DNA of 64,000 nucleotides, from contig NC_133896.1 in assembly GCF_964199755.1 (NCBI RefSeq), positions 83,295,815 through 83,359,814 of the forward strand, given 5' to 3'. Below are positions 4,928 through 61,813 of this stretch, piece after piece. Both the position numbers and the translations under genes were made by a program. The notes below the pieces were generated by a model that was given only the letters and a program-made list of their open reading frames with translations, was not told where the DNA came from and ran no database searches. How positions within the stretch are numbered: position 1 is the stretch's first letter; each line of letters begins with the position of its first letter. Source of the DNA: Larus michahellis (lineage: Eukaryota; Chordata; Aves; Charadriiformes; Laridae).

Positions 4928-7900
4928 GTAAAACATCTAATCATCTCTTGAGTGTACGCTGTTTTCTCTCGTGTGCTCTCTCTCTCTCTCTTTCATTTTT
5001 AAGATTGTCACTGGATTATACTAGGAGAATGCTATAAAATGCTGGATGCAGAAGTCATGGGAAGGGTGAAAAGTTGCAGATGGTGGAAGAGATGCTAATG
5101 AGGTACAAATCAGCAAAGCTACTCCTAAGTCAGTATCACTATGCAGTAGTGTCTCAGTTCTGGCCCCTTGTTTTAAGTAACAGAATGAGAAATAAAAATA
5201 GCTTATTTTTGAACAATAAGCATAATTTTTTTTTTTTTTAATACGAAGAACGTGATCAAAACCCTGTTAGAATATGCTCCACCAAATTACTACCTAGTCC
5301 AAAAATCAGATCAATGCATTTTATGATGTCTTCCTGGAAAAGGAGTAGTAAATTAATGAGTAAATCAGAAAAGCAGTGGCAGTCAAAAGTGCAGTCACTG
5401 TCACTGGAGGAAGTACTGAAGGACTCCTAAAACCCTCCTGCTCTTCCTTTTTAGTTTTCCAGTAGTGATTTTCCCAGAACTACATTATCAACCTGTGATC
5501 ACTTCCTATATTTGTAGCAAAATACAAAGGATTAAGTCAATATTCAGGGTAGGCAGATAATTTAAACCAATTGTTTTTAAGAAATAAAATTTCCACTACT
5601 TGGAAAAAATGTAATTCATTCATGAAAGCATTTTGTCAAAATTCAGGATCACAGCTAATATGAATGACATCTTCTCACTATGAGCAAATAGGAAATGCTT
5701 GTGGTCAGAGTAAGATGATATTTTCATGCTTTCAGGTTCATTAGTAATTAATGCATTTAATTACTTAAGGAAAAAACACTTGTGTAATGAGCATTTTTAG
5801 AAGATGTTCTACTTACAATGTAGATTAATACTGATGATGGTGCTCTGACTGCATCTAGTTAAATAATGGAAAAAAATATTTCTCAATATTTTTACAAGAA
5901 CTGTATCTACAAAATAAAAATGACTTCTCTTTAGTATCTGTCTAACAGAAAATACTACCTTAGACTGTATGTTCATGCATCCCTGGAGGTTGTTTGTACT
6001 ACTGTAACCTGTACAACACAAAGCTCAAAGGGTTTGCCTAGAATTTTAGCCAGTTTCTGAGGTGATATAATTTATTTGCAAAGGGAGACAGACATAAAAT
6101 CGTCATTTGAAGACATCCAAAAATGTGTCTTGATCATGCTGTCTAAAGAAAAACCTTGAATTTGAATAGGCCAGGCTTTAATTTCCAATGAAAGTTCTCA
6201 TTAACATCTAGATGGTTCTTGTGAAACCTTTGTCAAATAGATTTTAGCATTCAATATTTTCTCACATGAAGTTGCTGGCCACAATAATGAAGTAATTTCT
6301 CAGTGTCCTTTTGCCTTTAAATCTCTCACTTATAACTTTCCAAAGAACTCTAAATATTTTTGTGGATGTTTTTCTGTTCATTCCCCAGTGTTTCCATCTC
6401 CTTTAAAAAATATGGGCGCCAGTATTACTACAAGCCTCAGTTACGCTGTCTCAGTTACACAGAGACAAAAATCTCTTAAATAATCTTTCCTTCACTGTTT
6501 TTAACTCCCAGTATCACCCTCCTCCACCCTTGTATCTGGTTATACTCAAACACATTTTGTTTAAGCTTGGACTTACAGGGCTGTCAATATGGCTGTCTTT
6601 ATTTATTGCTTTGCTAACCTTTCTGTTCTTTTCAGATTTTATTATCGATTACTTTTCTACTTACTTTGACACAAACTGAAAAAACACCAAATAGTATTAA
6701 GCAATATTGGACCTCATATCAACATAGAACATGCTAGAAATGTCTCCCTGATGACAATTATTTCTCTGTCTTCATCATTAACATATACTAACATGGGTTT
6801 TATTGCTATTAAAATAGACAAGAACTTGAGCTGTATTGTCATGCTTTACAAATTCATATGAACAATTTCAGTTGCTTGTTCCTTCTTTGAAGTTTTAAGG
6901 TTCTGACCAAAATTCACACACACGCATCCCATTGGTGAGTCGTCTTGCATTACAAAAAAATCTTCAAAAAGGAGAGAGTCACTTTTACCATAGGAAGAAT
7001 GGGAGAAAATGTCATTTTTTCAACGGAATTAGTTCTGTAATTTTTAAAAAACTTGGTAGGAAATTCAGGGAAAAATCCTGAAATGTGACGGACATGTTGA
7101 GCAATGTTCACGAAACAGAGTTAAGCTCAGTGCAAGTATAGCAATGATTAGCATTAAAGTTCTCCGCTGCATAGTGGACCCTTGCTGAGATGCCCTGCAT
7201 TTCTCTACAGATAATGGAGGAGAGTCAGGGATCCTAGCACGGTGAGCTGGGAACTGCCCAAAGTAGTGAAAGGATAGAGCAATGACACGAGGTGCTGCTC
7301 AGTCTGCCGTTTCTGGGAGTTAGATCCATCCCTGCAAGCTAGAAGGAGCTCTCTACTACGTGGACTGGGCCCAAAGCTGCTTTGGACAGGACAGCTTCCA
7401 CATGCCAAACACACTTAACAGCATGTCCCACTCTGCACGAAGAGGTTTCAATGCTTCCTCCCATTTGGAGCAGGAATTCTAAGCTGATTCTCAAAGTGAG
7501 GGTCTCAGCTCCAAGGTGATGGGATGCTCTGTGGCGAGCATCACAAGCTCTGCCTTTGGCACTGTCTGACTCTGTGACACATTGAAATGTCTGCTGAAGG
7601 ATGGCTAATGCCCGCATCCCTCCCTTTGCCAGACTTTATGCTGGTCTTGTTCTCGGCCAGGAATGTCTGAAAAAGAAGTAGTTTCAAGACGGGCATGAGG
7701 GAAAGCACCGCATGGTTAAAACTCTCACCACGGAGGCGAGTGAGCTGGGTTTAATCACCACTGCAAATGTGGCAGATAAATGCTCCAAGTGGCAGACTCT
7801 CACCCTTTAGGCAAGACTTCAAATCACTAGGCTATGGGGAAGTGGAACATGTCCACCTCCTCCTGGCTGCATTTTGTGCAAGCTTCAGACCATTAGATGC

Positions 7901-13080: not shown

Positions 13081-15979
13081 TGTGTATTTGTGTTCAAGTT
13101 TTGAAGGACAGAGCAGGAAAATCAGAAAGTTTGTCTCAGTATGGTCTAAACAGCACCGGCAATCACAGTCCTTCAGAGAAGACTGTCTCAGGAGTGCTCC
13201 TGAAATGGCTCATGGAGGAACTGTGTGAAGATGGACAGGGTAAGGACGGTTAGTCCTTCCAGAGAATAGAGGAGGTGTTGCGTGCATACTTTTGTTGTCT
13301 CTGTTCCCTTTTCTATGACACTCTGCAGTTTATGGGAACTCACTGGCACTACCCGGGGAGCATGGTATTCCCACACAGAAATGATGACAGGATCTAAACT
13401 TACATTTCAATTACAATAGTTTTGCTCATCTTTTGGTATAAATAGTTTCCGGTACTTTCTTTATATTACTTCCTGCCAGGAGCTGCTGTCGTAGATCCTC
13501 CCCTTGTCCTGGAGAACACTTTCCAGACAATAATTTTTTGCTAGGAATGGGAGGAAATTTAGCTTTCCTATCCTTTTGCGAGGATCAGGCAAAGGAACAC
13601 CTTCCTGGTCTTTTTATTGTGGACCTATTATTTGTTGGCAAATACTAATGCTTTTCTAAGGACTGATTTTTAATGATGTTACTTTGAAACATTAGAGGAA
13701 GCCAAGACAGAAAATGTGGGGGACATTCCTCCCAGATGCTCTGCGTGAAATGGGAAGTAGACCTGGGAATAGCAGTGTTCCCCTAACACAGTTCCTTCTC
13801 CAGCTCCATGGACATAGTTTGGACTTCACCTAAATGCCTGTGCTTTCTGATCACATCATGTGTCAAACCCACACAGTCCACATCACGTCACATGGCATAT
13901 GGCACGGTGTCTCCTCACAAGGGCTGCATGGGGGAGGATGAAAAGTGTCTTTGCGGCACTTTGGGTCCTGCCGGCGCTCTCAACCAGGCAGGTGCACAGG
14001 GAGGTGGAGAGCCGATGATGTGCAGTGGGAGTGCATAGCACCATGGCAAAGCAGTGGGAAGCTGAGGAGAGGAGGGGCATTGGAGCCTTCAAACCTCTCC
14101 CCACACGCAGCAAACACATGCTTGGGAGTGGGGACTGGCTTCTTTTCGACCAGTCAGGCAGGCACATAACTGGAACAGGCACATGGCAACTGGAACAAGT
14201 CACGGTACAAGCTAACAGTTCCCTCTCTATACCCACAGGAACAACATGCGAGCTGTGTCCTCCTGGGTGGCAGTTACACAGAGGGAGATGTTACTACTTC
14301 TCTGAGGAGGCTGCGACCTGGGATGACAGCCAGAGAAACTGTCTGGCCAAGAAATCCCAGCTTCTTGAAATTGAAGATGAAATTGAGATGGTAAGTCTTG
14401 CAGCAGCCTTAAAACTGTGCTACAGTGCGCCTTAGTCAAATATTTCACCAAGTGAACACGGCCCAGATGTCAGGCATACATGCAGGCAAGCAAGAGACCC
14501 ATCAGGCGCAGAGCAACTGACTCGCCAGGGACAGGAGCTTGTTTTGAGAGCGTCAACAGAGTAGAGCTGAAGAGGAGAAGCGCACGAGATGCAAGTGTGG
14601 AAGCCAGAGTAGTTTTGACTGGGAGGAGGAAATGCTGGGGACTTCTCACCCTTTTCCACTACTTGACTCTGGGAAGAGAGGTCTGATTCAACTGCAAAAT
14701 GGAAATTCAAACAGCCAACCCCCCCTTCCCATTTTCCTTTGGGAAAATGAATAGCAAGGTACCACCGAATGGCTCTTCTGAGAGGGAGGTCCTCCCTCTG
14801 AGACCTCCCCCTGAGGAAAAGGTCTTTTACCTTAAAGACCAGGCTTTGCCACCTGGCACATTAGGGTGAGGAGAATCAATGACGGTTTTTTTTTGACAGC
14901 TGACAGGAAGCCAGTCAGCCCGAGCACCAGCTTGAAATGAAACTCTGTGCTGGTCGCATGCATATGGGCTGTTGCAATGGGCTCCTTTGCCACGGCTGGA
15001 TCCCTGCCCTTGCTCTCCATGTGAGAGACTACATGAAAAGTGACCTGAGCATAGCAGAAAAGCTCTGCTAGTGGGTAACATGCTTCTACTTGTTCCACAG
15101 GAATTTATAGACAGTAAAGAGAAAGATACCAAATATATCTGGATTGGTTTGAAGACTCAAGACATTAAGAAAGAATGGAGTTCAGCTGAAGATCCTGGAG
15201 TAAAAGAAAACAGGTGATGATTTGTGGGTGGAGGGTGTCTTCGGCAACAGCAATGGTACTCTGCATGGAAATACAACTCTGAATCCAAGATAATTTCCCA
15301 AAGCAGAGATCTAGTCCTGCAGCCTCAGGTACCTATTCAGGGTCTATTTCTCAGCCAGTTCCAGGTTAACTGGCTCTTGCCGGGCACTTTTGGAAACAGA
15401 TTTGTTTTCTGTCTGGAAGACCAACCACAGTCACAGTTCATGTATGTATTAATACACACTTCTCCCACTGAAATCACTGTCAACAAACTCTTTCACTTTA
15501 CAGACCACGTGTTGACCGCCTCCGTTGAATGTGACGCCTGTCACATCGCATGGGTGCTGGGATCTGTGCAGCCTGAGGGTCCTTCCCCTCCCTCTTGCCG
15601 TTACAGCTCAGCATCGTGGCTGCATGCGGTGGTTTTCTCATCCTTCTTACGCTAACATTCCTGAGCACCCGCCCCTCAGCAGCCAGCAGTCTCTGCTGTG
15701 GGTGCCCATCCCACCCAGGCATGGCTGTTGAGGAACTGAGGAACTGGGCATCACCCAAACCCCTCACGCAGGATATTATCAATATTTTTACCCAGTACTG
15801 AATTTAAAGCTGACAACTCATTGTATTCCTTTTGCTCTCTCAGCAGGATAGCTGTAAAAAGAATTGAGACTGACAAGAACTGCGCTGTTTACAGAAGAAA
15901 ACACATGATCCAAGCAGATAACTGCCAGACTTTAAAGAAGTGGATCTGTAAGAAGAATGCAACTTTGTTGGTGCTCTGA
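4846..15979 (+). CDS. CD94/NKG2-like (KLR family) C-type lectin receptor with two ITIMs, whole gene
   Basis: Seven coding exons: 4846-4927, 10940-11017, 12163-12261, 13099-13239, 14239-14390, 15101-15213 and 15847-15979 (or from 15844). All junctions have GT-AG ends and agree in phase, giving about 265 residues. The order is cytoplasmic tail with ITIMs ITYADV and ITYAEL, transmembrane helix, stalk, then a C-type lectin-like domain with CYYFSEE, a TW..S...C block, the WIGL core and a final WICKK. The calcium-binding EPN/QPD and WND motifs are absent, so this is a group V NK-type domain. The membrane helix has no charged residue, so DAP12-type pairing is not expected and an inhibitory role through SHP phosphatases is inferred. 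The two-ITIM layout and the CELCPP/CYY/DEIEMEFI pattern most resemble NKG2A. KLRB1, KLRG1 and CLEC12 relatives are alternatives. Class is sure; orthology is not. Confidence 0.9.
7740..7850. repeat. Possible ancient CR1/L3-like or SINE remnant
   Basis: The stretch around 'caaatcactaggctatgggg' resembles the old amniote repeat block 'aaccactaggctatgggg'. Short and diverged. Confidence 0.25.
8925..9230 (-). repeat. CR1 LINE fragment, antisense, in intron 1 of the NKG2-like gene
   Basis: Contains the antisense CR1 blocks 'ctggaccctctccagcttct', 'gacagtgttccaggagtggc' and neighbours. GC-richer than the intron around it. Diverged, incomplete. Confidence 0.6.
10940..11017 (+). CDS. Exon 2: second ITIM (ITYAEL)
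   Basis: 78 bases, phase 1 in and out, between acceptor CATTACAG and donor TCGG|GTAGTG. It encodes ITYAEL, the same six residues as the distal ITIM of mammalian NKG2A, then a Pro/Lys/Ser-rich spacer. The exon is symmetrical, so skipping it would give a one-ITIM tail without changing frame. Confidence 0.87.
12163..12261 (+). CDS. Exon 3: transmembrane segment
   Basis: 99 bases, phase 1-1, after a strong pyrimidine tract (CCTCCCTCCAG) and ending CCAT|GTGAGT. It encodes CRHGRSAW followed by about 23 hydrophobic residues rich in Val and Leu, with Lys-Pro at the far end. The N-terminal basic cluster fits a type II anchor. Confidence 0.88.
12968..12986. repeat. (CA)n microsatellite
   Basis: Nineteen bases of alternating A and C in intron 3 of the NKG2-like gene, complementary to the GT tract at 13068-13085. 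Confidence 0.95.
13046..13085 (+). repeat. T22-GT9 tract before the stalk exon
   Basis: Twenty-two T followed by nine GT units, ending 13 bases before the exon 4 acceptor, so it forms the polypyrimidine tract of that exon. Both parts are expected to vary in length between individuals. Confidence 0.95.
13099..13239 (+). CDS. Exon 4: extracellular stalk
   Basis: 141 bases, phase 1-1, hydrophilic, with one N-glycosylation site (NST) and one cysteine near its end that could form a dimer bond. The acceptor follows an unusual T22 and GT9 tract. The donor is CAGG|GTAAGG. Confidence 0.82.
14239..14390 (+). CDS. Exon 5: lectin-like domain, first part
   Basis: 152 bases, phase 1 in, phase 0 out (GAGATG|GTAAGT). 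It begins TTCELCPPGW and carries GRCYYFSEE, TWDDS and the first domain cysteine pair, ending LLEIEDEIEM. This is the standard first CTLD exon of KLR genes. Confidence 0.92.
15101..15213 (+). CDS. Exon 6: lectin-like domain, WIGL exon
   Basis: 113 bases, phase 0 in, phase 2 out (AACAG|GTGATG). Encodes EFIDS and the hallmark WIGL, followed by a WSS stretch in place of the usual WxW-DGS. Confidence 0.92.
15847..15979 (+). CDS. Exon 7: lectin-like domain, last part and stop
   Basis: Starts after a tandem CAGCAG acceptor, so splicing at 15844 or 15847 differs by one serine. It contains the last cysteines (KNCAVY, DNCQTL, WICKK), an NAT glycosylation site and TGA at 15977-15979. Confidence 0.9.
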
Positions 15980-22342: not shown

Positions 22343-25300
22343 CTGTAAGGGAGAATGAAAGACACGTTTACTTTGACAACCACAATCAAATAACGCAATA
22401 GAGCAAAGGGACCTACGGGGATCACAGGTTCTCTTTGTACAAAGACCGATTTACCACAGACAAGGCATCGCGGGAGGATGATAACTTGTGCTTTGAAGAG
22501 AACACTACAAAGACTGGATTTTTTTAATGGGACTTGGCCCCAGAATACAAAAACTAGACTTGCAGTACTCCTGCAGCTTGTCTAGTGGTCACTTAATGTG
22601 AAATATGCCCTTAGAGAGAAGACTGGAATTCCAGTTTGCCCTTCTCAAGGACACCGTGCTATTAAGACTGGCTCCACCTTTGACTTCCACATCCTTCTAT
22701 ATAGCTAAAATGTTCCAGCAGAAGCTGTGAAACAAATGGCTCTCTCATTTCCCTCTTCCTCAGAACTGAACACGGCACGATGGTTAAGGGGCGGTGGAAA
22801 ATGGGAAGCGAACCTCTGTTTCCACACCGTAGGTGTCGCTACTTAAGAGGTACGCTCCTTCACCAACCCTGTTTTCAAATCAAGTGTTAGTGTTCTGTGA
22901 ATAGGCCACCCAAACTAGTACAGCCTCCGGAAAAGCCAAGGGACAAATCCCCACCAGTGTTAACACGACTCTAATAGCAACCAAGCTTAGACATCAAGGT
23001 GTTTGCCCTTCTAAAGACAGGAGGGGCAGTCTGAGGCAAGCACAGAGGCAGAAGTCTAAGAATGTCAACTTCATCACTGAAAATGAAAACAGTCGATGTT
23101 TGTATGGCAGGCAGGGGATAAGCAAGAGTGGGAAGGACTGCAATTTTCAACTTGAGATGCCTACATGGTGCTCACAATTCACATTAAATGCATAAGCTCT
23201 TCATCAGATCAAGTCTTGAGGATAAACTGAATACAGTCACGCACCACTAGTAATGTCACAAACTTAAGAGTACTTAAATTTCCCACTTTTTAAGTCCATT
23301 TCAGACTAGTGAAATCTCAGTGCTTAGTACTGTCACTGGTAACTCTATGAAATCCTGCCGGCAGCTGCCCCAGGACAAGAAGCAGCAGTCTCTGAGAAGA
23401 TGGCACAGCCATCAGTGGGAGGAACAAACTGGCCCACACCTGACACTGGTGGGACAGAACACAGGGCCATGACCACAGAGCAACTCACGTAACATGAATT
23501 CACAGCTTCATCTTCCCCCCCCGGCGGCCTTTTTTGTAGGCACATTCTATAACAAGTATGAAAACATCTCTTCGAAGCCTCCGGAATATCTCTGCTATAA
23601 ACCTCATGCAGGTTGCATGCAGGTTAGACTTTTGTAAAATATATTCTATAATGAGGAATTTGTGTTATTGTAATCTTCCATTCCTCCCCCTGTTGCTTTG
23701 GTATCTTGGTTTTAACTTTCGCTTTGCTATACTGTCTGTTACCATGAGCTCCCGTCTCACATTGCTTCTGAACGTGGCATTACAAATTTATCTCCTAACT
23801 TTCATCTGTCACAGTTTTAACAATGCTATGTGAAGTCTTCATTGTAAATAAAGATAGTCATCCCTTCCCATCCATAGTCATCCCTTCAGATATTTCTTTC
23901 AAGTCACTGTCTATATCTCTATTAGTTATCCTTTCTTACTCTCCTATAATCTTGTATCACCAGCAAAACCCCTCAACATCGACTTACAGTTCATTGTCTA
24001 ATGCTTTCCCATTTACCCAAAAGAACTCTTCATTTCTTTTATAGAGTCCAATCCACGGGTCTTCCTTTGTTATCTTCACCATAAAACTCTGTAGGAATAA
24101 ACCCATATGAGAAAAGAAGTTTTGCATGCTCAGTCCAATTATCAAAACATAAAGTCTTTGATCCAGGGCTAGAAAGCAAAACAATGATATTGCCTTTGTC
24201 CCCGAAGAAATAATATTAAAAATTAAATCTATGGAGTACTGCTGCATCTGGATCTTGTGTGATCCACGTAACCGAAAGAGAACTTACAACTCAACCAGAA
24301 ATCAAACAGATTAATTTTGAGACAGAACTCAGATACTGTAGTGACAGAAATGCCAACTATGAGAACACAAGTATACTACTGAATATTATGAACTGCTATG
24401 GAACTGCAAATGCATCATTTTGCTGTCTTTCCACAAGAAAGTCTTCAAAGAATGATGAACACCTTTGCAGCTAACGCATTTCTCCATTACTGATATATCT
24501 TCACCATACTGAGTTTTTATTACCAGATAGCAAGGATTTGTGGAAGACATTTTAGAGATTAGAGCTGACCTAGAGAGAAGCTGTTTTAAATTATCCAGGC
24601 CTGCTATCAAGGTCTGTAACAGATATGGAAGAATGTATTCTCCTAGGTCTTTGTGCTAGGTGGACTCTACTAATACTGTGGTATAATACAGAAAAAGATG
24701 CTCAAACCTGTGGTTAGGATGACTATCTCGTAACTCCAAAGGTCAAGACTATCATATCTACCAGGCTGTCGTTAACCTAGCTTGCTAAGAGAGAACAGTT
24801 GTCTAATAAAAGGTGAATGAGATGCAACAGTGTTTACCTTGATAGTTGCCTTCAATGTGAGTACTTACGGCTGTGAGCAGCACCAAATGAAAGTCAGATA
24901 AGCCTCGGGCATTTTTTAAGATGTCAACTGCTAAAACTGATGTTTGCTGTTAGCAGGGAGAGGCAGGAAGGCAGGCAGCCTTCAGCAAGCTGTGACTCAT
25001 CACTGTCTTTGCATGAGCTTTCAAACCATCCAGCTTAAGCAGCTGGAAGAACACACTGGTTCATTGTGCAGCTCCCCAGAAGTGAGATGGGGTGAAACGA
25101 GGACCCCCTTTTTGTTCCCTTACCAGTTCCTGATGATCTTCGATCACCAGGAGAGAAGCATTGTGCAAAGAGCAGAAGCTCTGACTGGAGTTCCAGTTGG
25201 CTTCACTCTCTGAGAGGTAATAGCATTTCCTCTGGAAATAGAGCCAATCTGATGGACAGAGTTCCAGGGAAGGACAAACAGGAAAACCTTTGTCTGAAGA

Positions 25301-27385
25301 ACGGTTTACTGCGAAAAGACAAAAAACAATCTACCCATTTCTTCCAACTAGAAAAGGTTTCTGGAGCTTTTTAGCTTGCTTTCTGATCTGACTGCATCAT
25401 CTGAAATCATCTAAGTCTAACCATAGCCTTATTACTTCTACCCAGCAGAAATAATTATTGTAAATTAATTATATACTCTGGCTCCTGCACTCTTATTGTT
25501 GCTGATATACCTTTAAAGTGATGATCAGGAGCAGGCTGGTAGAAGTAGCTGAGAAGGTGATAATAACGTATCCTCCAAGAACTCTTCTACAACTTATAGT
25601 TTTTGCAAGTGTTGCTTCCTTACAGCTGGATTAATAGCTTTGTTTATTGTAGTGTCATTTTTTGAAGGACTACAGATTGGTTGCAATTTATTATTTGTCT
25701 TCGTGAACTTGGATTAAAACCAACAGTGAGGTTATAAACTTGAATGCCAGAAGTATGCTAAGACTAAACTGAACACTCCCTAACACCACTGCAACTAGTA
25801 GAGTCATTTCTCCAGCACTTGGTAACAATTTTAAACAGCATGTCATGAGACATTTGCTTAACTTTGAGATAAGGTAAGGTCTGAATAAACTTTTTGAGGC
25901 TTTGAGGGACGTCTGACAACCTGAAACTCTGTTAATTTCTAAGGCTAATTATACTTTCTTTTTAAATGATTTACACACTTACCAAACTGAATACACAAAA
26001 TCAAAATGACAGCAGCAGCAAGGACTCCAGCAACACCTCGCCATAACCAGATATTTGAGAACAGACCTGAAAAAATGAAATGTCAGGATTTAAAAAAAAA
26101 AGAAAAACAAACCAAAAAACAAACCGCAACCAGCTGACAGGAGAGTAGAGCGCAGGACCCATGAAGCTATTCCAAAAAAAGTCACTCTTCGTGGAAAGCA
26201 GGCTGGGAGCAGAGCTGAAGACTAGGAAGGGTGTGACATTTAGCTTGTCATCACAAAGTTACTTAGCTAACAAGAACTGTGAATTACTCCGAATTTTAAT
26301 TACATCACCCAGAACTTAACCTAAGAATAAGGTAGTTCCCGACACTCCAAAGTGATCGAAAAAGAAAGAAATGAGAATGGAATAAATGAGGGTGAAGACA
26401 GTTAAGTCTGAGGTTGACCTGATGCTTAAACATGGCATGGATAAGAGAAATAAGACAAGTCATCAGCTCTGGAGTCCAAAACTTCTTCTGAGGAATATCC
26501 AGCCTTATCCCACAGCCATAGCTTTTCAGAGTCTCTTTTTCTCCCTGTGTCCCTTCCAGGAGCCGAGCGGTGAGCTGGGTTTGGAGGGGGGAAGGACCAA
26601 CCAACTCTCCACGGCCGTGCCTCGCGTCCAACTTTGCAGGCAGTCGCAGGGGACGCGGTGCCCCTGATGGGGGTGGGGGCAGAGGGAGGGTCCCCTCTCA
26701 CTGGTGGCGACTCTGCTGCCAGCACGGGGCTCTGCCCGGGCAGCCTCCTACCTCCGTGAAGAGCCGCAGCACAGCGATGGGGATATCTAGCCGCCACGCA
26801 CAAGGTGCGTCCCTCCCTACGGGATGCTGCCACGGGGCCGATTCCCAGCCGGCCCCACGCACGCCTCCGTCCACACGATGCCCGACGGCACCTCCGGCTG
26901 TTTCTCGGGTGGCTTTTGCAATCCGGAGCCAGGCGCCGTCCGCCTCCCCGCCAGCCCAGGGCCGCCCCGGCCGGCCGTCGTCCCTCGACGCCGGCACCTC
27001 CATCGGATCGGCCGCTCCACGCCGGGCGGCACCCGCAGCCGTGCCGCAGCCAGGGGGTTTTCCAGCCGCCTGGCGGCTCCCGGGACGCCGCGGGACAGCA
27101 GCCGCCGCGCCCAGCCCCGCTGCCGGCCCGGGCGGACCGGAGCGGCCGGCGTCCCTGCCCCGGCGACGGGGGCTGCGCGGCCACCTCCCCCCCCGGGACG
27201 ACACCCCCGCTGTCCGCCCCTCTCACCGGCGGTGTCTCCCGGCTCCCCGCCCCGGCTGCGGCCACTGGCGCCCCCGCGACGTCCCGCCCCGGCCCCTCTC
27301 CCTTTGCCCCTTCACCTTTGGCGGTCCCCGGCCCCCGCTCCGGGGAGCTGCTGCGGTCCCCGCCACCGCCCCCTCGGCGTCCCAT
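22225..27385 (-). CDS. CLEC2/CD69-like C-type lectin-like membrane protein, whole gene
   Basis: Coding exons on the minus strand: 27316-27385 (tentative), 25983-26066, 25124-25293, 23988-24088 and 22225-22342. Phases 1, 1, 0 and 2 agree at every junction and give about 180 residues, the usual CLEC2 length. It is a type II protein: short tail, one membrane helix, short stalk with two cysteines, then a lectin-like domain with RKCYYLSE, WNSSQ, DPWIGLY, FFWVNGK and CAYLESKG...RKWVCS. The last block closely follows the human CLEC2D pattern CAYL.DKG...ERKWICS. No calcium site is present. CLEC2 proteins act as NKR-P1 ligands and CD69 as an activation antigen; which role this one has cannot be read from sequence. 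It is convergent with the NKG2-like gene 6 kb away. Exon 1 is the weak point. Confidence 0.88.
23988..24088 (-). CDS. CLEC2-like exon 4: WIGL exon
   Basis: 101 bases, phase 0 in, phase 2 out (GAACT|GTAAGT), acceptor TTTATTCCTACAG. Encodes SFMVKITKEDPWIGLYKR and FFWVNGKALDNE. Confidence 0.93.
25124..25293 (-). CDS. CLEC2-like exon 3: lectin-like domain, first part
   Basis: 170 bases, phase 1 in, phase 0 out (GAACTG|GTAAGG). Contains CPSDWLYFQRKCYYLSE and WNSSQSFC, two N-glycosylation sites (NSS, NAS) and ends EDHQEL. The CP-x-DW-x-x-FQRKC opening is typical of CD69 and CLEC2D. Confidence 0.93.
25983..26066 (-). CDS. CLEC2-like exon 2: transmembrane segment
   Basis: 84 bases, phase 1-1, acceptor TTTTTTCAG, donor TTTG|GTAAGT. 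Encodes IWLWRGVAG then an Ala/Val/Ile/Leu-rich helix. Confidence 0.85.
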
Positions 27386-43578: not shown

Positions 43579-45338
43579 GTGAGCAGAAATCCAGGAAATT
43601 ACATTTGAGAGACATGAACAACAGCAGCACCTCATTGAATAGCAGAGAATTTGCAGGAAAACACCTATTGTTATTAAACAAGTTCAGGCACGCAGAACCA
43701 AATGCACTTGTTCTACAAGAAAGGAACATCAAGAACGGAGTTCTGGGATTTCCAAGTGTGTAGAGATGCTTGCAGGAGAAGCTGAGAGCGCTCCACCATA
43801 TTTGTCTTCTCGCCAAGTTCCCTCCCTTTCTGTCACTCTCCGAAGCTAAGGCTCCTCCTTCCCATCAGGGAAGTTGGAGACGCTGACACCAGCAGCCGCA
43901 GGGGCTCATCGCTCATCCCTTCCCAGGCAGTGAGTAAATGCTTCCCTCCTTCTTGCCGTGCTGCTCTCCTTCACGCAGCTGTGATGCTGCCCCACTCCTG
44001 AGGCGATGCCCCACTCCCAGCAGCCAAGGGCCATGGTGGGACATGTAGGGAAAACAAAGGTGGCTGTTTGTCGGGCTTCTGGTCTTTCTGCTGGTGCTGG
44101 CAGCTCTGGTTAGTTTTGGTTTCAGATCCTCATGTGAGCTCAGCAGAGGGGAATTCCTTTCTGAGGCGGAGGAGGAGAAGGGCAGGAAGAAGAGGAGGGC
44201 TTCCGTGCAATCAGCTGGCAAAGGGGAAAATGAGGAGGCTGCAGAAGTCAGGGAACAATAAGTGCCACCCATGCAGTTCTCGGCAAGCTAACACATGACT
44301 TGTTCTGGTGTTGCGCTTGCCAGTGCTGGGTGAGGTGACAATATTTGGCTGTAGAAGGACACAGTTTGGCACCCCTTATTTCTTTTTGCTTTCATAAAGC
44401 AGAGATGCTTGAAATTTTGCGTGCTAGATCTTCGCAAAAAGTAATATTTTCTAAGACTAATGAGGCCTTGGATGATAGAGGGAGCAACATAGAGCCTTGC
44501 TACACATTGTTGTCCATGGGGAACAGGCATCTAGCACCCTGGGTTTTGGAAAGATCATTTTATTCTCCCCATAGCCTCTCCAGTGTGGATGGGTGGATTG
44601 CTTCAGAGAGATTTTCGCACCAAGAACAAAAACCTCCACAGCGATTACACCTAGCTCTTATACAGGGCTCCAAGGCAATCTGATCGCTTCCTTCTTGTCT
44701 TGCATAGCTAGGCTAAAGTGAGGGACAGACCATCTGCGGAAGTTCAGGACACTTTCTCCTGGTCTGTGGAACCTGTCTGGAGAGGGCTGCTGCACTTATG
44801 ATACTAGCTCTGCTTCTTGCTTCTCTGTGTTGATATCAGAAGTAGCGAACAATATTCTGTGCATTCCTAATATTAAATCCCAAGTAGATAATATTAATAT
44901 TTATCACTAAGGAGCTTTGCTGTTGCAAATGCTTGAATGGAATATATAGTGACTTACAATTACTATTGTAATTTAATTAAAGTTCTACCTAGATGAAAAA
45001 CATTTGCTCTCAGAAACAATTCCACTGTGTTAAATTAAAAGTATGAATCAGTGCTCACCAATGTGACTAAGTTTCCAGCATGGAGTTGAGTTGAAGCCAG
45101 GGACTAAGCCAGATGCTTGATACCCCAACTCCTGAACTCAGAGTCTGTCAGTGTTATCAGTATGTCTGTGAATGCAAAACCACAAGTTTATAGTGTAGCC
45201 TGAGAAGGATGGAAAGGCAAAATGGTATGCCTTTGGTAAGCAGAACAGTTTGCAAAATTATGCATTTTATTTCTATCTTTGTTTCATGGAGCATGATTTC
45301 ATAATTTGTGCCTTCATGGTTTGCTTTTGCAGCAAAGA

Positions 45339-46682
45339 ATGATGGATTTCAAAGAGGAAATTAAACCCATTTCAGATACTTGTATTAGTGAGACCAGTTC
45401 TGGATTGTCTGTAAGAGCAGGAATGACAGATCTTCAAGGACCACAGATGCTTCCTGAGCTACCTGCACTGGCAACCCAGGAGACTCACCACATCTTTGTC
45501 AGTTATAGTAACATCAATTCAGCCTGGGCGAGGAACCTTATCCAGAGCCTAGAAGCCATGATTCCGAATCTGAAGGCCTGTTATCATGAGAGGGACTTTA
45601 TACCAGGTAAAACAATAATTGAAAACATGGTTGAGGCCATTCAAGGAAGCCAGAAAATTGTCTTAGTCCTCAGCCCTGACTTTGTCCAGAGTCGGTGGTG
45701 CCTTCTGGAAGCCAATCTCTCTGTCTTCCAAGACTGTTTAGAAAGCAAGCCAGTGATCCCCATCATGCTGGTGCCCTGTTTTGTGCCAATGCACCTCACT
45801 CATTTGACTTACATTGATGCCAGTGACACCCACTTTTTGGATAAGGTTATCAAGGTCATTTGCACTCCCAACCATCAGATGAAGAATGCCACCATGGTTC
45901 CTTATAGCCCTCCATCCCTTTACAATGGGAAACCCCTCCTGGCCCTACCTGCAGTGGATGATCAGGTCATTCCAAGATGCAGAGGAGGCACATTCAGTGA
46001 GGCACTGCCTGACCAGCTGAAGATAATCTGTGAAGATACTGAGGTCTACAGAAAGGCCATCCGGATGATTAATGAGGTATCGTCTAGGGTATCACCTTTT
46101 TCATCAGTCAATATTATCTTCTGGATATCAGCTTGCCTGTTAGGAAGCTTGTATTTGTTTAATGCCATCTTCTTATTTGTTTCGTTAGGCCAGGACTCTG
46201 GTGACTCCTATACAACTTTCCTTGGCTGTATTATGGTCTTTGCAACTTTGTCTAGTTTTTCTACTCTTGTTAATTATGTCTACAACTATAAAATCAAATC
46301 AGCTGATGAGAAACTTCTGGAGATGTCCCAAGTTGCTGGTGAGGCCAACTCATTGCTGATAAAGGATTCCCTGTTGGTTGGCTGTGATTCCCGAGTGAAA
46401 CTCCAGTTAGTTTACATCTCCCTTGCAGGGTGCAGAAGGCACTTCTCAGAGACTTTTGGAGAGGGAGAATACTCTGCCGAAGAGATGTTCCAGCGAGCCT
46501 TGCACTATTTCTCCTCTGATTATGCCTGTTGTGTAGCCAAGAAGCACTTCCAGTTCTACTCAGGGACCACATCGGGGCACTGGGATGAAGGGCCCTGTTT
46601 TTGCCAGTTTGTTTCCCACTGCATGGAGAAAGAGTCCTGGCACTGGAATAGTGGTTATCGTCCAGATAAAAGAGAACTGTGA
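45339..46682 (+). CDS. TIR-domain protein with two membrane segments, 447 residues, function unknown
   Basis: A single intact coding exon. The acceptor TTTGCTTTTGCAG ends at 45332, then ATGATGG opens the frame at 45339 (both ATGs have A at -3), so there is a spliced 5' leader. Residues 51-175 form a TIR domain very like TLR2: box 1 IFVSYS, box 2 CYHERDFIPGK with the BB-loop proline, then VLSPDFVQSRWCLLE. A Pro-rich linker follows. Residues 257-283 and 292-316 are hydrophobic, a probable hairpin that leaves both ends in the cytosol. The C-terminal 130 residues hold a charged helix (ADEKLLEM), RALHYFSSDYACC and GHWDEGPCFCQF, and resemble nothing I know. No signal peptide and no leucine-rich repeats, so it is not a truncated Toll-like receptor. 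TIR signalling, as an adaptor or a decoy, is inferred. Confidence 0.93.
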   Translation: MMDFKEEIKPISDTCISETSSGLSVRAGMTDLQGPQMLPELPALATQETHHIFVSYSNINSAWARNLIQSLEAMIPNLKACYHERDFIPGKTIIENMVEAIQGSQKIVLVLSPDFVQSRWCLLEANLSVFQDCLESKPVIPIMLVPCFVPMHLTHLTYIDASDTHFLDKVIKVICTPNHQMKNATMVPYSPPSLYNGKPLLALPAVDDQVIPRCRGGTFSEALPDQLKIICEDTEVYRKAIRMINEVSSRVSPFSSVNIIFWISACLLGSLYLFNAIFLFVSLGQDSGDSYTTFLGCIMVFATLSSFSTLVNYVYNYKIKSADEKLLEMSQVAGEANSLLIKDSLLVGCDSRVKLQLVYISLAGCRRHFSETFGEGEYSAEEMFQRALHYFSSDYACCVAKKHFQFYSGTTSGHWDEGPCFCQFVSHCMEKESWHWNSGYRPDKREL

Positions 46683-46799: not shown

Positions 46800-46805
46800 A
46801 ATAAA
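46800..46805 (+). promoter_or_regulatory. Polyadenylation signal of the TIR gene
   Basis: AATAAA 118 bases after the stop codon, the first one downstream. There is no A tract after it, which argues against a processed retrocopy. Confidence 0.65.
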
Positions 46806-54163: not shown

Positions 54164-55822
54164 ATAGAATCATAGAACTGTTTGGGTTGGAAGGGACCTC
54201 TAGTTCCAACCGCCCTGCCATGGGCAGGGACACCTCCCACTAGACCAGGCTGCTCAAAGCCCCATCCAGCCTGGCCTTGAACACTTCCAGGGACGGGGCA
54301 TCCACAACTTCCCTGGGCAACCTGTTCCAGTGCCTCACCACTCTACCTGTAAAGAATTTATTCCTACTATCTAATCTAAATCTCCCCTCCTTCAATTTGA
54401 AACCATTACCCCATGTCCTCTCGTTGCACTCCTTGATAAAGGGTCCCTCCCCATCCTTCCTGTAGGCCCCCTTTAGGTACTAGAAGGCTGCTATAAGGTC
54501 TCCTTGGAGCCTTCTCTTCTCCAGGCTGAACAACCCCAACTCTCTCAGCCTGTCCTCATAGCAGAGGTGCTACAGCCCTCGGATCATCTTTGTGGCCCTT
54601 CACTAGATCTGTTCCAACAAGTCCATGTCCTTCTTCTGCTGAGGACTCCAGAGCTGCATGCAGTGCTCCAGGTGATGTTTTACGAGAGTGGAGTAGAGGG
54701 GTAGAATCACCTCCCTCGACCTGCTGGCCACGCTTCTTTTGATGCAGCCCACGATGCGGTTGGCTTTCTGGGCTGCAAGTGTGCATTGCCTTCTCACGTT
54801 GAGCTTCTCGTCCACCAGAACCCCCGAGTCCTTCTCCTCAGGGCTGCTCTCAGCCCAGTCTCCACGCAACCTGTATTTGTGCCTGGGATTGCCATGACCC
54901 AGGTGCAGGACCTTGCACTTGGCATTGTTGAACTTCATGATGTTGGCATAGGCCCACGTCTCAAACCTGTCCAGGTCCCTCTGGATGGCATCCCTTCCCT
55001 CCAGCGTGTCGACTGCACCACACAGCTTGGTGACGTCGGCAAACTTGCTGAGGGTGCACTCAATCTCACTGTCCATGTCACTGACAAAGGTGTTAAACAG
55101 CACTGGTCCCAGTACTGACCCCTGAGGAATGCCACTTGTCACTGATTTCCATGTGGACATTGAGCCACTGACTGCAACCCTTTGAGTGCAGCCATCTAGC
55201 CAGTTCCTTCCTTATCCACCGAGTGGTCCATCCATCAAATCCATGCTTTTCCAACTTATAGACCAGGATGTCGTGAGGGACAGTGTCAAATGCTTTGCTT
55301 AAGTCCAGGTAGATGACGTCGGTTGCTCTCCCCTTATCCACCAATGCTGTAGCAACATCATAGAAGGTCACCAAATTTGTCAGGCACAGTTTGCCTTTGG
55401 TGAAGCCATGTTGGTTGTCACCAATCACCTCCTTATTTTCCATGTGCCTTAGCAGAGTTTCCAGGAGGATCTGCTCCATGATCTTGCCAGGCACAGAGGT
55501 GAGACTGACCGGTCTGTAGTTCCCTGGGTCTTCCTTTTTTCCCTGTTTGAAAATGGGAGTCTCCTGTCTCCTGCCTGAGAGGGCCCACATCTTCCCTAGT
55601 CTTGCCTTTATCCCTGACGTACTTATAGAAGTTTTTTTTGTTCTCCTTGATGTCCCTAGCTAGATTTAATTCTATCTGGGCTTTAGCTTGCCTAATCTGG
55701 TTCCTGGCCACTCAGATAGTTTCTCTGCATTGCACCCAGTCAACCTGTCCTTGCTTCCACCCTCTGTAGGCCTTCTTTTTGCTTTTGAATTTGTCCAGGA
55801 GCTCCTTGTTAATCCATATACA
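54164..55822 (-). mobile_element. CR1 LINE copy with a reverse transcriptase region, 5'-truncated
   Basis: About 1.66 kb antisense. Minus-strand translation shows reverse transcriptase motifs in order: [49 protein letters not shown] and FADVTKLCG, then the C-terminal domain ([20 protein letters not shown], then [20 protein letters not shown]). The catalytic FADD has become FADV, and the frame changes near 55100, so it cannot move itself. The usual CR1 tail unit is at 54164. Confidence 0.95.
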
Positions 55823-58060: not shown

Positions 58061-61000
58061 ATGTGTATTACCTTTTCCTTCAAAAGTTACTTGAAAACTG
58101 CCTGTGTTATTGAGCTGAGTCTAGCAGTCTGTATTTTGTGTCGACATAGGGAACAGCCAGTATCTCTCAGAGATGGGATTTGGGGAGCGCTGGCTGGTCC
58201 CCTTGCCCATAGCAGTCAGTGATCCTCCAGACACCCTGCGGCAGAATAAATTTCATCGGACAGCAAGTAGAAGGTGCTGTCCCTTCATCAAGGCTGCATC
58301 TGTGTTTTACTGGGCCTTTGAAGAAGGCTGGGTGCTTTACAGTCAACAAAGGAAACAGGGATGATGCCACCGAGTTACGATATTTACCACCAGCTTTAAC
58401 ACCAGCTGGCAGAGGCTCGTGATCCAGAAGGGTCCTCTGGGATCACAAATGCCTACACATTACTTGTGCCTCATATCAAACATCACTAAATGGATACCTA
58501 GATTTCCTGTAATTAATAATTTCAAACTTAAAAAAATAAATTGAATAACAAACAGGCCTGTTCAAGCTCCACACCTGCCTTCCACATCCGAGGGAAATGG
58601 ATTAAATTCTAACACAGAGAAGTAGCATTGAAAACATCTTCTTGGTCTCTCAAGAGCTTTTGTTTAATTAGGTATCACAAGTAGCTTTTTACTGATTTTT
58701 TTCTGTAAGTGTAATGGTGTCATTGACATTTTTCTAAACTAAATTTGCATGATTTAGTCAGAATCTGGCCTTGAACAAACGTCCTCCTGAACTGGCAAAG
58801 GAGCTTCCATAGGAAAGGGTTGGCATAGCTTCATCTCAGCCACGAACACCAAATCCAGCTTTCTCACTCATCCTGTGCCCAAGCTCTACAGACAAGGCAC
58901 AGGCATCTTCAGCTTCCATGAAACAGGCCTCTGTGTTAGACAGAAATCCAGTATTAAGGAGAGAGGAAAAAGTACTAAAGCACAATAAGACAGGAAATGG
59001 ACGAACATGTGCTCGAGAGCGATTGTGCTCAGTCCATGAAAGTGATACCTGCTTTACGGAGGTTCATTGGCATAAATAATGTGCTACTTGCAGGGCACAA
59101 AGTGTAGTTGAATCAAAATTCCTGGAGGAAAATGAAGATTTTTAAATTGATCTGACCTCTAATGCTGCAGCGGTGCGTACCCTATGTTCATTTATATACT
59201 GTGCTTTTTCTCCCGGAGAATAACTTTTGTGTCAATGCTTTTTTCGTTTTCAAGCTACACCCAAGTCCTGTACAGACCCTTCTGTGTTCCCAACTCTACC
59301 ATCCGAAGTGCTCATTACTAATTCTTGTAAAATACTGGTGCAAGTTATTTTCTGGATATTGCGTTATCCTCCTGCTTGTCTGGTAAAATGCTGCATGTTT
59401 TAGACTCATTGCTCTTAGCAATTGTTATAGAACAGTTAAGGAGCAAAAAGGAAATATGGAATTTGCCTCTATGCTCCTTGCCATCTCCAGGTTGCCGTGT
59501 TTCAGCAGGGTTAGTCTGTGGGCTGCTTTTCCTTAATATCCTCCCTGGATCTCTCTGATACACAACTGAATTCAACAAGCATGACTCCTGCAATGGCTAC
59601 CCTCGAGTCTTTGGTATAATTGCAAGTTTTTACAGTAAGTAATTTCTACCACAATCTAAAGCTTTTGTCCTAACTCGGTGTCCGTTTGAACTCATCTCCT
59701 TAAAGCGCCTCTCCCTAAAACTCTACTGCAATTTCCCTCAGAGCAAACCACCTCAGCTAGTTTTAAGCACTTCCACAGTCTCCATCTCTAGTAGATGAAT
59801 CACTAGAAGTGAGACTTAACCTCTCAGTGTTTTAGTTCCGAATTAGCACCTAACTGCACTCCAGACGGATTTCCCTTTGGTGACTTCATTGAGGTATTTT
59901 TATCTTAGGGCTGCTTCTTCTAGCAAACCATGCTGATTTCCCAAAAATCAAAAGTGAAAGCAAAAATGTGTTTCCAAAAAGATGATAAAAATATGGTACC
60001 TTCTCTAGAAAGATAAATACAAGCATAGCAACACCCACAAAGTCTGGAAGCCAAAAAAAGGCCTAGCTTCATCGTTTTTCAGAGATGAACCCACAAGAAA
60101 GAAGGTTCACACATTTTCAGGCCTTCATAATGCTGGAAGTTTTAAAACTTTAGTCACACAGGCATAGCTACTCTACAGGCGCTCTGCTGGTCGGCTCACG
60201 AAGGAAGGAGAACATGCTCTCCAAGTAGGAGCTCCCTTATATCAGAGCTACATTGGGGAGTAATAATTGACCAACCTGCATCAAGAAAATACCACACCGA
60301 GACAAAATAGTTATAGCAATTGCAACATCATGTCCAAGCGCTGGCTTAGTTGTAGGAAGCCTTTGTACCGCTCACTTGCCCTCAGACTCTAGTCTGGGAC
60401 CAGGAGGAGAAAGGGGGTCTGTGTGAAACTCCTACCAGTCAGGTCTCTGCCAAGCATTTCTGTTCATATCGAAGGGTCCCTTTCTTAACAAAGAAAGATG
60501 TAGGTGAGAGAGCAAAACTGGCCTTTGGAAAGCCAGCCAGTATCAGCAGGCACTTTTAGAAATGTTTGTTTTTTTTCCTTTTTTGATACATGGAGCAAAC
60601 ATGGGTGCATATAGCACCTATAGTTGAAGTCTCAGTTCAAGAATTCTGTTATTTCTAATGCTGAAATAAGGAAAAAAGCACATGCTTAGTCATGTTAAAA
60701 GTACATATACGGACAATTCACTGAAACTTTGTAGCACCTCCATCAACGAGGATCAGAAATTTGATAGGGAAATTACCCTTTTCCCTAAATACAGCCTCCC
60801 TATCCCAGTTGTGCTCGTGTCTGCCTGTATGTGCTCACTAGAGACTCAGCAGAGTCTGGTAACTTCCCCTCGAAAGATTTGGCATGTACTCAACATGCTC
60901 AAGCATAAGTTCCCAGGACTAGGAATAACAAACAAACAAACCAACCCAAGGAAAACCCAGCCTTTTGAAAATGGAATGTGGGCAGAGCTTCATCAGCACA

Positions 61001-61813
61001 GAGTTTTGACCAAGGAAGCTTTTCCTGGGGTTGATGTGCATATTTGTGTCTATGTGTGTGCATATACACACAAACACATATTGTCTCTTCAGCATGTGCA
61101 GAGCCACTTACCTCTGTTAATGCTTGCATCAACATCATGTTTCTATGTCAGCAGCATCACAGCTAAAAGTGGAGGGGACAACTCTTACCAACTAGAGAAG
61201 TGAGGCTGGAGGAACATCGTCCCAGTGACTGAGCAGAGTAAGCCAGTTAATCCACTAAAGACCACATTTTGCCTGAAACACAGTGGGCAATGGGTCTACG
61301 ACAATAGGACTTCCTCCCTTGTTAGGGATTTCCTTGTAAGCAGTGTTTGCTCCTTAGTCCTGTGACTTTCTATCTCAGGGTTTAATGAACTTCATGTGGT
61401 TCCACAGTGACCCTGTGGAAGAGCTTTCCCCTTTCTGTCACCTCTGATGCACAGAAGCTCAGATCTGCTGCTGGCTGAAGCCTCCTAAATCCCACTAGGT
61501 CCAGTGGCTCCCAGGGAAGAGATATTTCCTTGGCTCTCCCCTTCAGTAGAGCCCGCCTGATCAAAGGCCAGCAGCTCTAATACGAAAATAAAAGGGCAGC
61601 CCTCCTCCAGGCTGCTCCATAACACATAACACAATGTGGAGTCCTGTCCCCCCACTCTCTGGTAAACTGAGTAGAAAGAAAGAGCCCCTCCAGCACAGCT
61701 TCCTTCTGAAATAATAGTTTAGATTCTGGTTTCTGCCATTGAGGTTATTCTGTCACAGCTATTATTAAATTGTTAAAGGAGAAATCACTGCCTGAGCATT
61801 CACACACCGTTCA
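58061..61813. other. No feature recognised
   Basis: AT-rich. A 173-codon + frame at 60682-61203 has no domain, no splice context and low-complexity His/Cys/Tyr stretches from a GTGT run; taken as chance. Confidence 0.45.

Follow-up and report, generated by a model that had tools for sequence, protein, structure and literature searches.

To our knowledge, the TIR proteins of vertebrates are the Toll-like receptors (TLRs), the interleukin-1 receptors, a few adaptors, and SARM1. The adaptors MyD88, TIRAP, TRIF, and TRAM lack integral membrane helices, with a death domain in MyD88, and SARM1 carries ARM and SAM domains ahead of its TIR domain. In a survey of TIR domains, members of the TLR group with another layout are few, and cnidarian cases are named (PMC7075850). 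In Hydra, the TRRs are membrane TIR proteins that lack leucine-rich repeats (LRRs) (PMC1896004), and sea anemones have TIR proteins of novel architecture (PMC5094078). Human TMEM268, a protein of 342 residues with two helices, carries a DUF4481 domain at residues 38 to 328, and its residues 104 to 342 bind integrin beta-4 (PMC6748091). In mice, TMEM268 protects and stabilizes phagocyte integrins, and Tmem268 knockout animals clear bacteria poorly; the authors tie the raised cytokines of the knockout to enhanced TLR signaling and state that more evidence is required (PMC11169502). Here, we describe a predicted gene in a 64,000-nucleotide stretch of the Larus michahellis genome (NC_133896.1, positions 83,295,815 to 83,359,814, on contig C1 of our searches; hereafter, the window) that joins an N-terminal TIR domain to a two-helix hairpin and a tail distantly related to that of TMEM268. 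This layout is undescribed in the literature searched: among openly licensed PubMed Central papers, we found none that treats TMEM268 and a TIR domain together and, among the papers listed, no description of a TIR-hairpin-tail protein.

The elements of the gene, in positions of the window, are as follows.

45331 to 45332, forward strand: terminal AG of a probable splice acceptor (tttgcttttgcag), with six bases between it and the ATG, read from the sequence
45339 to 46682, forward strand: whole coding frame, 447 codons and a stop, intronless, by direct reading; single copy found in this genome
45492 to 45827, forward strand: TIR domain, Pfam TIR_2 match at residues 52 to 163 (E = 2.5e-18)
45591 to 45608, forward strand: RDFIPG within the TIR domain, read in the alignment, which we take to be the BB-loop motif
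45636 to 45830, forward strand: C-terminal half of the TIR domain, among solved structures nearest Hydra TRR-2 (4w8h, E = 1.4e-6; TLR2, E = 0.0034), with no TLR-type FW ending
46110 to 46187, forward strand: predicted transmembrane helix 1, residues 258 to 283, by hydrophobicity
46215 to 46283, forward strand: predicted transmembrane helix 2, residues 293 to 315, by hydrophobicity
46350 to 46502, forward strand: DUF4481/TMEM268-like stretch 1, profile positions 135 to 192 of 293 (E = 6.6e-4 for both stretches jointly)
46473 to 46613, forward strand: DUF4481/TMEM268-like stretch 2, profile positions 246 to 292 of 293, with PCxCQF (this piece alone, E = 0.12)
46800 to 46805, forward strand: AATAAA polyadenylation signal, 117 bases 3' of the stop

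The single uninterrupted frame of 447 codons noticed in a preliminary description of this DNA is present: it runs from an ATG at 45339 to a stop ending at 46682 without an internal stop, and the reading frame stays open 5' of the ATG as far as 45297. Under a simple base-composition model, the probability of 461 open codons is 1e-12, and about 0.0002 such frames would be expected in 1.4 Gb. When neutral decay was simulated, 29 of 200 frames survived 0.05 changes per site without a stop, and none of 200 survived 0.2. Thus, a frame of this length is unlikely to be open by chance. At sites identical in four TLRs of the same genome, the window gene departs from them at 15 of 44 first codon positions, at 13 of 70 second positions, and at 9 of 20 third positions; the numbers are small, and the pattern is as expected for a constrained protein. 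The frame is intact and probably under selection, as the preliminary description had proposed. The likely splice acceptor so close to the ATG points to one or more exons upstream, probably of 5' untranslated sequence, and the gene likely consists of one coding exon and an upstream, probably noncoding, exon. Automatic genome annotation may already carry it as uncharacterized.

Membership of the TIR superfamily is clear from two Pfam families (PF13676, E = 2.5e-18, 67.2 bits against a cut-off of 28; PF01582, E = 2.5e-13, 50.6 bits against a cut-off of 21.3), and the domain lies at the N terminus, as first described. Its description as TLR2-like applies to the first half. The best solved relative of the whole protein is TLR2 (1fyw, E = 8.4e-20), covering residues 50 to 145 only; the best matches, TLR2, TLR1, and TLR6, all stop at or before residue 145 (TLR6 at 126), and the Pfam match reaches 162, these residues being counted from the second methionine. 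The label does not extend to the second half, which lacks the FW ending typical of TLR TIR domains and, searched alone, has Hydra TRR-2 as its best solved match. That likeness is carried by IPI..PC.VP..L.H.TY.D, in which 13 of 26 residues are identical. A 59-residue Hydra stretch scored 110 against the window TIR domain, 59 against the best of 13 TIR frames from the same genome (two of them, L017 and L024, being truncated or disrupted in the compared part), and 55 against the best of 1,000 shuffles, a comparison that favors the window because the stretch was picked for matching it. PC.VP occurs in none of the 11 genomic TIR frames that include that part. Where alignable, the domain is 32 to 34% identical to four TLR TIR domains of its own genome, which are 44 to 52% identical to one another. 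In a tree with 12 TIR rows taken from the 15 other genomic matches (L021, L022, and L023 were left out, and the C209 row was cut to 75 residues), it sits on a long branch with unsupported placement.

The two hydrophobic helices noted earlier in the middle of the protein were found at about residues 258 to 283 and 293 to 315, with best 19-residue Kyte-Doolittle means of 2.10 and 1.79. Lysine and arginine are absent from the loop between them and number five in the 30 residues before and three in the 24 after, so by the positive-inside rule the TIR domain and the tail would both face the cytosol; the sign comes from lysine and arginine alone, as aspartate and glutamate are equal on the flanks (four and four). 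DUF3810 (E = 0.0077) was rejected as an assignment for the membrane part because its match vanishes once the helices are removed.

The tail of about 130 residues, earlier taken to be unlike any familiar domain, proved to have a distant relative. Searched by itself, it gives a match in two ordered stretches to the TMEM268 family of Pfam, DUF4481 (E = 6.6e-4, 19.6 bits), below the family cut-off. None of six scrambled controls was positive, and the match persists when the helices are cut off, whereas that of DUF3810 does not. As in TMEM268, the hairpin directly precedes the conserved tail, whose match starts at about residue 338, and PCxCQF is also present in the genome's own TMEM268. A search of the PDB with hairpin and tail gave no match at E = 10. 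In NCBIfam, the best hit of the protein was a TIR model (E = 9.8e-4, 18 bits, the cut-off being 600), and the tail gave nothing better than E = 0.005.

The preliminary description had held that the protein fits no known class of animal TIR protein, and our comparison agrees. In a Pfam scan of the frame, there was no LRR, no immunoglobulin domain, no death domain, none of the ARM and SAM domains of SARM1, and no STING domain. An N-terminal TIR domain with two helices departs from the TLR layout of one helix and a C-terminal TIR domain, and two predicted membrane helices without a death domain set it apart from MyD88, TIRAP, TRIF, and TRAM. It does share with the Hydra TRRs a membrane-anchored TIR domain without LRRs. 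The earlier worry that a transcript might join the frame to upstream LRR exons found no support in the window: a tblastn search with up to 480 residues preceding the TIR domain of 11 TLR-type frames of this genome detected no TLR-type ectodomain, and the best match (E = 0.30) fell inside the TIR gene's own frame.

Searching the genome (1.405 Gb, 616 contigs) with the protein gave 16 matches at E = 10: itself, 12 with E below 0.01, and three with E above 0.1, one of which looks TLR3-like. The 12 are TIR domains of long-frame TLR-type genes or of one adaptor-like gene (C21), and the best match other than itself is 47% identical over 78 residues. Thus, one copy of the TIR-hairpin-tail gene was found. 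In a host-contamination check of viral and prokaryotic contigs, there was no relative, including among 14 prokaryotic pattern-matching stretches. TMEM268 itself is encoded elsewhere in this genome by a split gene of its own on C19; six pieces of it pass the DUF4481 cut-off, and a seventh falls short. What is presumably a TLR4-like gene lies 1.3 Mb away on the same contig, perhaps by chance. The receptors include TLR15 at C3:12.99 Mb (its TIR domain matches the solved one of TLR15 with E = 3e-94) and tandem pairs on C9 that we take, from sequence and place, to be TLR2-like and TLR1-like, our TLR4- and TLR7-type labels being assumed in the same way. TLR15 and these pairs, with the CR1-like frames noted below, fit a bird genome. 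Distinct from the C9 pairs and from TLR15 is another TLR with a long frame, of the TLR2 family, at C28:3180505-3180741 (L014; TIR domain, E = 6e-51 to TLR2 and 2.7e-38 to TLR15). Two genes presumed to be of the TLR7/8 type (C1:140971565-140971789 and 141004458-141004682), about 33 kb apart, have equal match scores, suggesting recent tandem duplication.

Our preferred reading, held tentatively and at somewhat less than even confidence, is that the product of the gene is a cytosolic TIR scaffold, anchored in a membrane, whose TMEM268-like hairpin and tail place it between integrin-type receptors and TLR adaptors. The architecture is supported; the function, and the mechanism as a whole, are what we infer from it. 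The hairpin and tail would keep the protein at the plasma membrane or at endosomal membranes, beside integrin-type receptors, on the model of TMEM268 with CD11b and integrin beta-4, and the TIR domain would engage TLR2-class TIR domains, or MyD88 or TRIF, through the BB loop. The protein may thus serve, on the cytosolic membrane face, as a scaffold or sink coupling adhesion and phagocytosis receptors to TLR signaling. In mammals, each of the two joined modules works on its own side of what may be a single circuit, and CD11b reportedly promotes MyD88 and TRIF degradation, according to the title of one study. A role as a sensor is unlikely because the frame has no ligand-binding part, which, with the missing FW ending, makes damping more likely than starting TLR signaling. 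A bolder version, which we regard as improbable but worth stating, is that an ancient lineage of LRR-less membrane TIR proteins, predating the cnidarian split, can still be seen in Hydra TRR-2 and persists in birds, where it is joined to an integrin-binding module of the TMEM268 type, revealing a direct integrin-TLR adaptor link that mammals keep as separate proteins. If the preferred reading is true, a TIR domain on a TMEM268-like hairpin adds a layout to the vertebrate TIR proteins, TMEM268 would seem to share a circuit with TLR adaptors, and its interaction with MyD88, TRIF, or TLR2 becomes testable in mammals.

Several observations weigh against kinship with TMEM268. With the tail alone, the best DUF4481 score falls short of the Pfam cut-off of 25 bits, the second stretch by itself is weak, and the helix pair alone gives no match. 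The part before helix 1 cannot be aligned (627 of 1,000 shuffles were equally good against human TMEM268), and, compared with the genome's own TMEM268, the first half of the tail scores weakly (240/5,000). Block-wise shuffles of hairpin and tail did as well against the own TMEM268 in 63 of 1,000 cases end to end and 15 of 1,000 locally; we list here too the figures against human TMEM268 (1 of 1,000 and 0 of 1,000), a sequence that Pfam scored at 460 bits for DUF4481 over residues 38 to 328 of 342, agreeing with PMC6748091. By raw local score against the own TMEM268, two of 169 other open frames in the window reached 50 and 48 and the tail 47, and the loop omitted in this tail comparison was picked after the match was seen. 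Searching the genome with the DUF4481 profile returned TMEM268 exons only, not the TIR-hairpin gene, and searching it with hairpin and tail returned only the query itself. Single-sequence structure prediction was poor (mean predicted local distance difference test [pLDDT], 33.4 for the whole protein and 38.8 for the tail), no residue reaching a pLDDT of 70. Several of these points would fit a real gene that resembles DUF4481 by chance, a lineage-specific TIR domain carried by a hydrophobic hairpin and followed by an unrelated tail, as would other weak matches of the membrane region, such as DUF3810. We nevertheless judge this account unlikely: the two stretches come in order with the helix pair correctly placed, the scrambled controls were all negative, and it is DUF4481 that stays and DUF3810 that goes when the helices are cut off.

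The closeness of the first half of the TIR domain to TLR2 and TLR1, the RDFIPG loop, and the lack of both an FW ending and an ectodomain match in the window would also suit a TLR damper or decoy that acts through its TIR domain alone, binding TLR1/2-class TIR domains at the membrane and preventing the recruitment of MyD88, the hairpin being a mere anchor with no integrin role. This, too, we doubt, as it leaves the tail's own family resemblance unexplained and the second half of the TIR domain is not TLR-like. A membrane-anchored enzyme that cleaves nicotinamide adenine dinucleotide (NAD) strikes us as extremely unlikely: the glutamate of WCxxE, which we take to be the equivalent of the SARM1 catalytic glutamate, is kept, and there is very weak similarity to prokaryotic defense TIR profiles (PF10137, E = 0.027; PF08937, E = 0.056), but the same glutamate occurs in the TLR2-like, TLR1-like, C28, TLR15, and TLR4-like rows, and it is to TLRs and Hydra TRR-2 that the relationship is strongest. 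That the coding part is intronless whereas TMEM268 is split might point to a functionless copy whose frame is open by luck; the length and divergence of the frame, the lack of a close parent gene in the genome, and the smaller change at second than at third codon positions make this very improbable.

Around the gene, the window holds at least two C-type lectin-like genes, whose hand-joined exons match Lectin_C.

14019 to 15976, forward strand: C-type lectin-like gene (E = 1e-15)
23987 to 25330, reverse strand: C-type lectin-like gene (E = 1.4e-9)

Weak lectin matches (E = 0.014 to 0.088) lie at C1:83.00-83.03 Mb, and a lectin-like frame was seen by eye in the left flank (L027, 5987 to 6400), where a run of N (about 6140 to 6430) adjoins a lectin-like exon. 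The TIR gene may therefore lie on the margin of a cluster of lectin genes. An open frame at 60670 to 61200 recurs nearly identically twice in the right flank (L032, 4844 to 5503; L035, 5372 to 5896), which by eye looks like a segmental duplication beginning near the window's right end. About 40 kb past the window (L035, 2 to 4565) are several retroviral-looking frames (gag/pol-like, by eye), and reverse transcriptase-like frames in pieces, presumably CR1-like, occupy 54603 to 55590 on the reverse strand of the window. A bacterial promoter scan upstream of the frame was set aside as meaningless for a vertebrate gene.

Among described systems, MyD88, TIRAP, TRIF, and TRAM share with the window protein a TIR domain without an ectodomain and may be its signaling partners; it differs from them by its two membrane helices, its DUF4481-like tail, and its lack of a death domain. 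The metazoan TIR-STING fusion (6wt6) likewise unites a TIR domain with a second innate immune module and matches window residues 34 to 181, but the second half of the window TIR domain scores far lower against it (E = 0.55) and the frame has no STING domain. With TLR2 and TLR1, the protein shares the first half of the TIR domain and the RDFIPG loop; it differs in having no LRR match, an N-terminal TIR domain, two helices, and no FW ending. Hydra TRR-2, the closest solved match of the second half, belongs to membrane TIR proteins without LRRs (PMC1896004, PMC7075850), which are described with transmembrane and relatively short extracellular parts, and the comparison covers a 59-residue TIR stretch. 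TMEM268 (C9orf91), as described, has no TIR domain, the human gene has nine exons (PMC6748091) whereas the window gene has one coding exon, the likeness of the tail is below the family cut-off, and nothing is alignable before helix 1. What the two proteins have in common is a hairpin of two helices and, after it, a tail that holds two ordered matching stretches and PCxCQ.
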